NCBI RefSeq assembly: GCF_012027305.1
Contig: NZ_SNUF01000003.1
Span: 124,001-188,000 of the forward strand
DNA length: 64,000 nucleotides
Direction of reading: 5' to 3'
DNA from: Thermococcus sp. MAR1
GTDB lineage: Archaea > Methanobacteriota_B > Thermococci > Thermococcales > Thermococcaceae
Made by a program: the position numbers and the translations under genes. Position 1 is the stretch's first letter. Each line of letters starts with the position of its first letter. The notes below the pieces were generated by a model. That model was not told the origin of the DNA, did no database searches, and was given only the letters and a program-made list of their open reading frames with translations. Below, in pieces: positions 13,436 to 37,128 of the stretch.

Positions 13436-15202
13436 TCAGAAGTCCAGCTCTATGCCCTCCTCCTCGTAGAGCTCCTCCTTCTTCTCCTCTGCCCTCTCGC
13501 GCTCCGCCCTTTCCCTCCAGCGCCTCACGACGCCTATGTCTTCCCCGCCGTAGTCGCCGCCGAGGGCCTTGAAGTTGTGTATCTTCACCAGCGCCGGCAG
13601 GCTTATGGCCTGGCCTACTATCACCGCCTCGCCCTTGCCGAGGCCGGCTATGTCGCCCATCAGTTCGCCGCTCAGTTGCTCGCTGGCCTTTATGACGTAG
13701 TTCTGGTCGTTCGGGTTCACGATGCGCATTATTATCTTGGTGTTCGTCTGGCTGAGGACGTCTTCACTGAGCCTGCTCGGTCTCTGGGATACCAAACCTA
13801 CCCCGACCCCGAACTTCCTGCCCTCCCTGGCGATTCTGCTTAGAATCCTCACGGTTCCGCCCTTCTCGCCGTGGGGTGCGAAGATGTGGGCCTCTTCCAC
13901 TATTATGAGTATAGGTTCTGAGAGGGCCGGATAGCTCGCCTCAACCGAGCGGATGAACCTCTCAAGCTCCTCCACCTCTTCCGAAACGGCCGAGATCCTG
14001 CTCCCGTACTTTCTCCTGAGGTATTCGAGCCTCTTTCTGGCCTTCTCGTAGTCCATTCTGGTTTCGAACATCTTTTCGAGGAGCTTTGCTGCGACAAGCT
14101 TCATCTGGCCCTCGTCGAGCGGTCCGAGGTCTATAACGTTCACCATCCCGGCTCTGATGGATGCTACTATGTCCTCGCTTGAGAGCAGGTGGCCGTAGTT
14201 CCTCAGGAAGCGGGATATCTTCATCGTGAGCCTCGTTATCGTTTCCCTCTCGGTTGCCTTTATCTCGCCCAGGTCGCGGTATTTGTTCGCGTGGGGGTCC
14301 CAGTAGCTCCCCCCGGCGTTGGCCACCCAGTTCTGGAGCAGGTCGAGGACGGCCTTAACTATCTCCCTTCCACCGAGGTTGGGGTTCTCGTGGAGAACCG
14401 TGTCCCAGGCGCGGAGCAGGTAGGAGCGCTGTATGGTTGCGTTGCTCTGTATCTCCATTAGGTCAGCCAGCTCCTCGCCGTCCATCGTCTCCGGCTGAAT
14501 CCTTGCCTCGATGAGGTTGACGTACTTTGTGCCCGTGTTGGGAAGACTAAGGCGCATGTAATCGCCGTGTGGGTCGAGGACGACGACGGTTCCCCTCAGG
14601 TCTTCCACCATCTTCCAGAGCATTACCGAAACGGTGTTGCTCTTGCCGGCCCCGGTGACGGCTAAAACTGCGAAGTGCCTTGAAACCAGCTCGTCGGCGT
14701 TGAGGTATATCGGCACGTCCTCCCTCAAAAGCAGGGTCCCCACCTCGATGAAGCCCTCCCCGCCGTAGTAGATAGCCCTGAGGAGGTCTGAGCTGGCTAT
14801 GTAGACTTTGTTTCCGTTGGGGACGGGGACACGGTTGGGGACTATCTCGGCAACCTCACCCCTGAACTCTATCCTTCCCAGCACGTGGACGGTGACTATA
14901 AGCGCCTCGTTCTCGCCTATGCTCTCCCCGTACTCCCTCAGGTCGAGGTCGAGGCTCGCGAAAGTGCTCTTCCCCTCGCTGAGGAGCCAGTTGATGTTTT
15001 TAATCCCCCTGATGGTGCCTATAACCCACTCATCGCCGTTCCAGCGGCAGTTCCTGTCCTTCGCCTCCTTGCACAGCTTTGCAACAACGAAGTCTCCAAA
15101 CTTGAGGTCGCTATCGGGATGAGCGTAGAACTGGAAGGAGCTGACCGTGGCTTCACCGGTCACGATTCCAACCGGGTTGTTAAGGTCTTCGGCTATGCGC
15201 AT
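13436..15202 (-). CDS. herA: DNA double-strand break repair helicase HerA
   Basis: Hexameric bipolar DNA translocase of the HerA/FtsK superfamily that partners NurA. 588 residues. The N-terminal HAS-barrel precedes Walker A ([10 protein letters not shown], near residue 170). Walker B is the hhhhEEAH stretch [13 protein letters not shown], and an arginine-rich region [12 protein letters not shown] follows. It is the first gene of the four-gene repair operon. The start has a good GGTGATG site. A C/D guide RNA candidate and the rimI promoter occupy the gap upstream. Confidence 0.95.
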
Positions 15203-15265
15203 AACATCACCTATCGGCTGACTTGGTTCTCGGGGGCTTTAAACTTTACTCCAGAAAGTAGGGGA

Positions 15266-15330
15266 AAGAATCAGCCAGGAATCCGGTCATCATCCCGGGG
15301 TCAGGTTCGAGAGTGCTCATCACGCGGGGT
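15266..15330 (-). ncRNA. C/D box guide RNA candidate (2'-O-methylation sRNA)
   Basis: Reading the minus strand, the boxes are C GTGATGA (15323-15317), a 12-nt guide (15316-15305), D' CTGA (15304-15301), a 7-nt spacer, C' ATGATGA (15293-15287), a second 12-nt guide (15286-15275) and D CTGA (15274-15271). Order, spacing and size match archaeal double-guide C/D sRNAs bound by L7Ae, Nop5 and fibrillarin. The second guide complements CAGGAATCCG in 23S rRNA at 36494-36503. The rule of the fifth nucleotide before box D predicts methylation of the G at window position 36497. I found no convincing target for the first guide. A TTTTAA element at about 15359-15367 is placed to drive it. The ends are estimates. 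Confidence 0.8.
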
Positions 15331-15388
15331 GGCCACCCCACATGAAGTCCTCCTCAAGTCTTAAAAGCTTTGGCGTGTAGTTTATAAC

Positions 15389-31975: not shown

Positions 31976-32355
31976 CCGTGCAAAAATTTTTGACATTTTA
32001 ATGTCTAATATTGTGCAATTTAACGGCGTCTTTTGACAGCTCCTTTTTCAAAAATCTGACCAAAAATCCGTTTTGCAAAAATTTTTCACTGTGGGGGTTC
32101 ACCCCTATTGGGTGGAGCGCCCGAACAGGGCGCGAAACACCCGGGCGCCAAGACGGCGGCGTCGGGGGGACAGGGTGCAAAGCACCCACTCATGAACCCC
32201 GCCCTCCAGCCCGGGTCACAAAAGGTGCGCTCCCGAGGAAACGCCGAAAGGCGGACCCCTCGGGGGTAAGGCAGGCCCGACATCCCGACTAAACCCCGGA
32301 CGGATATTTGGTACTTCCCCTTGAGGGAAGTCCCACCGGCCGTACTCCTTGCTCA
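31976..32355 (+). promoter_or_regulatory. rRNA operon promoter and leader region
   Basis: This 380-bp gap has no protein gene. The AT-rich first third carries a 12-bp direct repeat GCAAAAATTTTT at 31980-31991 and 32075-32086, and between the copies a near-perfect palindrome GACATT-TT-AATGTC at 31992-32005. The promoter of the rRNA operon must lie here, but I could not fix the TATA box. The remaining part is GC-rich leader, including the 5' arm of the 16S processing stem (32270-32305). Confidence 0.6.
32270..32305 (+). other. 5' arm of the 16S rRNA processing stem with bulge-helix-bulge
   Basis: Bases 32270-32286 pair perfectly with 33874-33890 (17 bp), and 32294-32305 pair with 33855-33866 (12 bp). 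Between them GACT (32287-32290) pairs with GGTC (33867-33870), leaving 3-nt bulges AAA (32291-32293) and TAA (33871-33873). That is an exact archaeal bulge-helix-bulge, the substrate of the splicing endonuclease, whose gene is at 15.9 kb. Confidence 0.88.

Positions 32356-33843
<1,488 letters not shown>

Positions 33844-34098: not shown

Positions 34099-37128
<3,030 letters not shown>

Follow-up and report, generated by a model that had tools for sequence, protein, structure and literature searches.

An sR5 C/D box guide RNA gene between herA and rimI of Thermococcus sp. MAR1, with two predicted 23S rRNA targets 33 bases apart

We examined the region between herA and rimI in a 64,000-nucleotide stretch of the Thermococcus sp. 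MAR1 genome (contig NZ_SNUF01000003.1, positions 124,001 to 188,000), referred to below as the window. On its minus strand, between 15271 and 15323, we found in the correct order the C, D', C' and D boxes and the two 12-nt guides that an earlier note had read from the letters (Table 1). The locus agrees with the archaeal C/D consensus (C RUGAUGA, D' CUGA, C' RUGAUGA, D CUGA, guides of about 12 nt). The four-box pattern had a single occurrence in the window, 300 same-size first-order Markov windows yielded none, and the C-D'-C' part of the pattern was found at 8 sites across the 2.02 Mb genome, with none in the reversed control. When the window was scanned with Rfam release 15, one of the six matches was sR5 (RF01304), which covered the whole model (1-53) and scored 45.6 bits, the gathering score being 40 (E 2.7e-7 for the 64 kb searched). 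The locus thus belongs to a curated Rfam family of archaeal C/D box RNAs. The boxes and the family match upheld both the C/D box guide RNA identity and the strand, and the feature very probably encodes sR5, an archaeal C/D box sRNA. The novelty implied in the earlier note fell away, since Rfam already holds sR5: this is a local copy of a small RNA already catalogued for Thermococcus-type archaea, real but ordinary, the palindrome upstream of it excepted. The window RNA folded no better than its shuffles (z 0.22), which for a C/D RNA neither helps nor harms the assignment.

Table 1. Features of the sR5 locus and its predicted 23S rRNA targets (window coordinates).
Feature	Position	Strand	Basis or remark
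sR5 C/D box guide RNA	15270-15326	minus	Rfam RF01304 covariance-model match
Box C GTGATGA	15323-15317	minus	box pattern read from sequence
D' guide GCACTCTCGAAC, 12 nt	15316-15305	minus	box pattern and 23S pairing
Box D' CTGA	15304-15301	minus	
D'-C' spacer CCCCGGG, 7 nt	15300-15294	minus	
Box C' ATGATGA	15293-15287	minus	
D guide CCGGATTCCTGG, 12 nt	15286-15275	minus	box pattern and 23S pairing
Box D CTGA	15274-15271	minus	
Palindrome GGGGTGGCCACCCC	15326-15339		2 nt upstream of box C (centre 9-10 nt upstream)
TATA-like TTTTAA (minus)/TTAAAA (plus)	15361-15366	both	probable shared sR5/rimI promoter
Pyrimidine-rich tract after box D	15261-15270	minus	probable termination region
herA TTTAAA box	15238-15243		between sR5 and herA start codon
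D guide 23S target	36493-36503	plus	predicted Gm 36497 (23S position 2404, counted from 34094)
D' guide 23S target	36462-36471	plus	predicted Gm 36464 (23S position 2371, counted from 34094)

Further Rfam matches were observed beside this one. Sub-threshold matches to RF01304 numbered up to 14 in one genome and are probably other C/D RNAs. A second match above the cut-off (41.5-43.3 bits) lay at another site in five genomes of genus g5 (G086, G087, G090, G091 and G092; loci L090-L093 and L095); these matches did not fit the four-box expression and are probably another C/D RNA. Within the window, the H/ACA guide RNA Pab19 (RF02794, 99.1 bits) was located at 32117-32220, just upstream of 16S, and a snoRNA in the 16S leader has been described for T. 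kodakarensis (PMC4247193).

The D guide forms 10 contiguous Watson-Crick pairs with 23S rRNA at 36494-36503, followed by a G:U at 36493, and the N+5 rule leads to G36497 in a G-C pair; the match and the choice of this G as the predicted methylation site, both proposed earlier, were exact. The first guide had been described as having no clear target in the window, which was wrong. We found that the D' guide pairs with 23S at 36462-36471 through 10 contiguous pairs, one of them G:U, and that its fifth position stands opposite G36464 (G-C). The two predicted Gm sites are 33 nt apart, the D' site being upstream of the D site, suggesting that sR5 is a classical double guide acting on neighbouring hairpins. 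Among permuted D guides, 460 of 20,000 reached at least 10 contiguous Watson-Crick pairs somewhere in 16S and 23S. Among 20,000 permuted D' guides, 84 found a run of at least ten pairs (no more than one G:U) at a distance of up to 100 nt from the D site; 257 of 4,000 had such a run anywhere in 16S and 23S. A single guide match would not be compelling, whereas both jointly, neighbouring and conserved, are compelling, and sR5 most likely directs two 23S methylations 33 bases apart.

When the target region was folded, the D' target formed the 3' strand of the hairpin at 36443-36471 (GCACACCCTCGAAAAGGTATCGAGGGTGC), downstream of GGGGCGG at 23S 2344, which we take to be the P-loop sequence of domain V. 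The D target lies in the following 23S hairpin, taking in its loop and its 3' strand, and the helices of the two target hairpins are presumably H81 to H83. With its two guides and N+5 geometry, the window sR5 resembles the archaeal double-guide C/D box sRNAs, and domain V of 23S has been described as a hotspot of predicted archaeal C/D sites (PMC4644070, PMC7994747).

The conservation of the RNA was then read from its relatives. RF01304 scored above the cut-off in 60 of 94 genomes from the taxonomic family to which the window belongs; the phylum set of 115 genomes, which includes the family, gave the same number, and four genomes of the same class outside the family had only weak matches (E about 5e-4). 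A strict D-half pattern was found in 60/94 genomes and in 54 of the 74 of high quality, with none in the reversed control; the RF01304 and D-half sets differ by G009, which has a variant C' box, and G063, which has a half copy. The earlier note had proposed that the boxes be sought in syntenic gaps of other Thermococcales; boxes and guides proved conserved in most relatives and absent or decayed in a minority. The best sR5 locus was taken from the 60 genomes, and 59 copies fit the four-box expression, G009 being left out by the misfit of its C' box. Guides were compared with 23S in 45 of these 59 copies, those with an available 23S region (the other 14 are not counted), and rows were kept only with GGATTC in the second guide, a filter that excludes the five second matches of g5 and also G009. 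At the same 23S site, the D guide formed at least 9 contiguous Watson-Crick pairs in 45/45 copies and at least 10 in 44/45. The D' guide formed 9-11 contiguous pairs at its site, G:U allowed, in 37/45 copies (27 from g1, 5 from g4 and 5 from g5); the exceptions were five g3 copies with one internal mismatch, two g3 copies that, read by eye, required a one-base bulge, and the single g2 copy, whose D' guide had no pairing at the site. In a cross table of eight hand-picked guide-target pairs, from which the g2 guide row was left out, the own guide was the best among those listed for the g1, g4a, g5a and g5b targets and was not the best for g4b or for both g3 targets, so co-variation between guide and rRNA is claimed as partial only.

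The highest scorers against RF01304 were members of g3, which we take to be the Pyrococcus group, and the D guide of the window was identical in all 8 g3 copies that fit the expression. The D' guide differed, being GCGCCATCGATG and variants of it in g3, but both forms target the same 23S site, and the D'-C' spacer was 7 nt in the window compared to 3 nt in g3 copies. Forty-six sRNAs have been reported across three species of Pyrococcus, and Northern blots served for verification in P. abyssi (PMC7994747), and RiboMeth-seq data for P. furiosus are available at GEO (GSE153501; PMC7758197). A literature search covering mainly open-access papers returned none on this locus or on sR5 targets. The main texts searched for expression of a T. 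kodakarensis copy did not name the locus.

To place the RNA among its neighbours, we recorded the genes around each copy. Of the 59 copies, 41 were within 300 nt of rimI, divergent in every case, and 33 had herA in the same orientation no more than 300 nt downstream. Twelve copies adjoined neither gene and the guides were kept in copies away from both, so sR5 is independent of its neighbours. As a side observation, 12 g1 copies adjoined rimI without herA beside them. The best matches of herA (13436-15202) within the genus formed two groups, one at about 68-100% identity and one mostly at 44-47%, a pattern which suggests that herA may have been replaced or relocated in relatives.

The TTTTAA box pointed out in the earlier note was present, and its back-to-back geometry with the rimI promoter fits: it is 37 nt upstream of box C on the minus strand, and in the TTAAAA reading 22 nt upstream of the start codon of rimI (15389, plus). 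In P. furiosus the promoter TATA is placed at -30 to -23; where a promoter is bidirectional (BRE-TATA-BRE), its two starts are about 49-50 bp apart (PMC6640164). The TATA spacing here is as in those bidirectional promoters, so the geometry fits a promoter common to sR5 and rimI. By this analogy the two probably use one bidirectional TATA, which would place the start of sR5 near 15336-15341. A probable bidirectional promoter of its own, shared with rimI, would set the window sR5 apart from most archaeal C/D sRNAs, among which independent promoters are a minority (PMC7994747). Past box D, 47/59 sR5 copies had seven or more pyrimidines among the next 10 nt, compared to 114 of the 590 CTGA sites that the window contains. 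A scan with bacterial promoter and terminator models, which are not applicable to archaea, found nothing.

The same-strand position upstream of herA in 33/59 copies would also suit a K-turn element in the herA 5' region that is bound by L7Ae and regulates herA instead of serving as a free guide RNA, and it has been cautioned that snoRNAs predicted in 5' regions may in some cases act as regulators in cis (PMC4247193). We consider this very unlikely, since herA has a TTTAAA box of its own, located between sR5 and the herA start codon, 26/59 copies are not beside herA, and the rRNA pairing of both guides, unneeded by a herA leader, has been kept. A free sR5 guide RNA is the reading that we retain.

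Loss of the RNA was also found. The D-half pattern was absent from 19 of the 74 high-quality genomes, with the variant copy of G009 counted as present, and in 18 of 19 genomes lacking sR5 (G009 excluded) the 23S targets were identical to those of the window over the 45 compared bases, suggesting that the methylations are dispensable or otherwise supplied. In the rimI gaps of G051 (L147) and G066 (L151) we observed decayed copies with mutated boxes, and in those of G056 (L098) and G063 (L101) half copies, one consisting of a D' half only and the other of a D half only. The remaining gaps without intact sR5 held nothing recognisable. These visibly decayed and half copies occupy the same gap, and the window copy might likewise be decayed or non-expressed; this is extremely improbable, however, because it keeps the four boxes and both pairings and because guides identical to its own occur in G070, G071, G031 and G013. 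Nor is it at all probable that this is a C/D RNA with its real targets elsewhere (16S near 32490-32501, tRNA or mRNA). The D guide does align there, one mismatch and two G:U included, and the tRNA scan covered the window, but the 16S run amounts to 7 pairs only and the 23S pairings of sR5 are neighbouring and conserved.

A search for substitute guides to the D site, carried out with relaxed spacing, gave five extra matches of the form TGATGA...GGATTCCT...CTGA (G013:C1:881953-881972, G017:C1:1790470-1790489, G039:C2:94833-94852, G029:C1:713068-713091 and G089:C3:396818-396841). Two of the five showed C/D-like spacing, and it is possible that the extra matches are further guides to the same 23S site. 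Only G039 among these genomes was without intact sR5, and its match misses two bases between the guide core and the D box.

We also analysed the palindrome before box C. Its core, GTGGCCAC, was present in 25 of 36 sR5 leaders of genus g1 (Thermococcus), with the centre always 9 or 10 nt from box C, in 0/23 sR5 leaders of other genera, and in 0/32 rimI or herA gaps without intact sR5. The sequence GGGTGGCCACCC was unique in the genome with up to one mismatch allowed. The distance from box C to TATA in g1 leaders was 25-35 nt without the core and 35-39 nt with it. A hairpin of at least 5 Watson-Crick pairs was possible in 17 of 33 distinct g1 leaders, and per-sequence shuffles gave fractions from 0.006 to 0.8 among the 25 leaders with the core, single cases being unremarkable. 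Common descent can explain part of this distribution. It is possible, if rather doubtful, that GGGGTGGCCACCCC is a functional element near the transcription start, acting either as a hairpin of the primary transcript, with a role in protecting or setting its 5' end, or as an operator modulating the bidirectional sR5/rimI promoter. The palindrome marks Thermococcus-genus sR5 copies, unlike archaeal C/D box sRNAs in general, and to our knowledge no such element has been known from C/D sRNAs.

In the C/D sRNPs that have been studied, L7Ae binds the kink motifs, Nop5 and fibrillarin are also present, and the ribose is methylated according to the N+5 rule. Beyond the boxes, family match, conservation and pairing observed here, we infer promoter use, protein assembly, methylation and chaperoning along the same lines. 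The RNA would probably be transcribed from its own promoter, divergent from rimI, and would terminate within the pyrimidine-rich tract that precedes the herA promoter. L7Ae would recognise the kink motifs formed by C/D and C'/D', with Nop5 and fibrillarin joining it, and at each D box fibrillarin would methylate the ribose of the rRNA nucleotide pairing with the guide base five positions ahead of the box. The D' guide sequence resembles the 5' strand of the first target hairpin, suggesting that bound sR5 would compete with that helix, and its binding might keep the hairpin open until release. A chaperone role for sR5 is thereby plausible, and such a role has been proposed for other archaeal C/D RNAs (PMC4644070).

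The finding opens no new kind of biology. For annotation, it provides one small RNA and two predicted Gm sites in neighbouring domain V hairpins, 33 nt apart. Since sR5 is present in most, not all, members of one archaeal family, its natural loss with unchanged targets would allow methylated and unmethylated ribosomes to be compared in close relatives.
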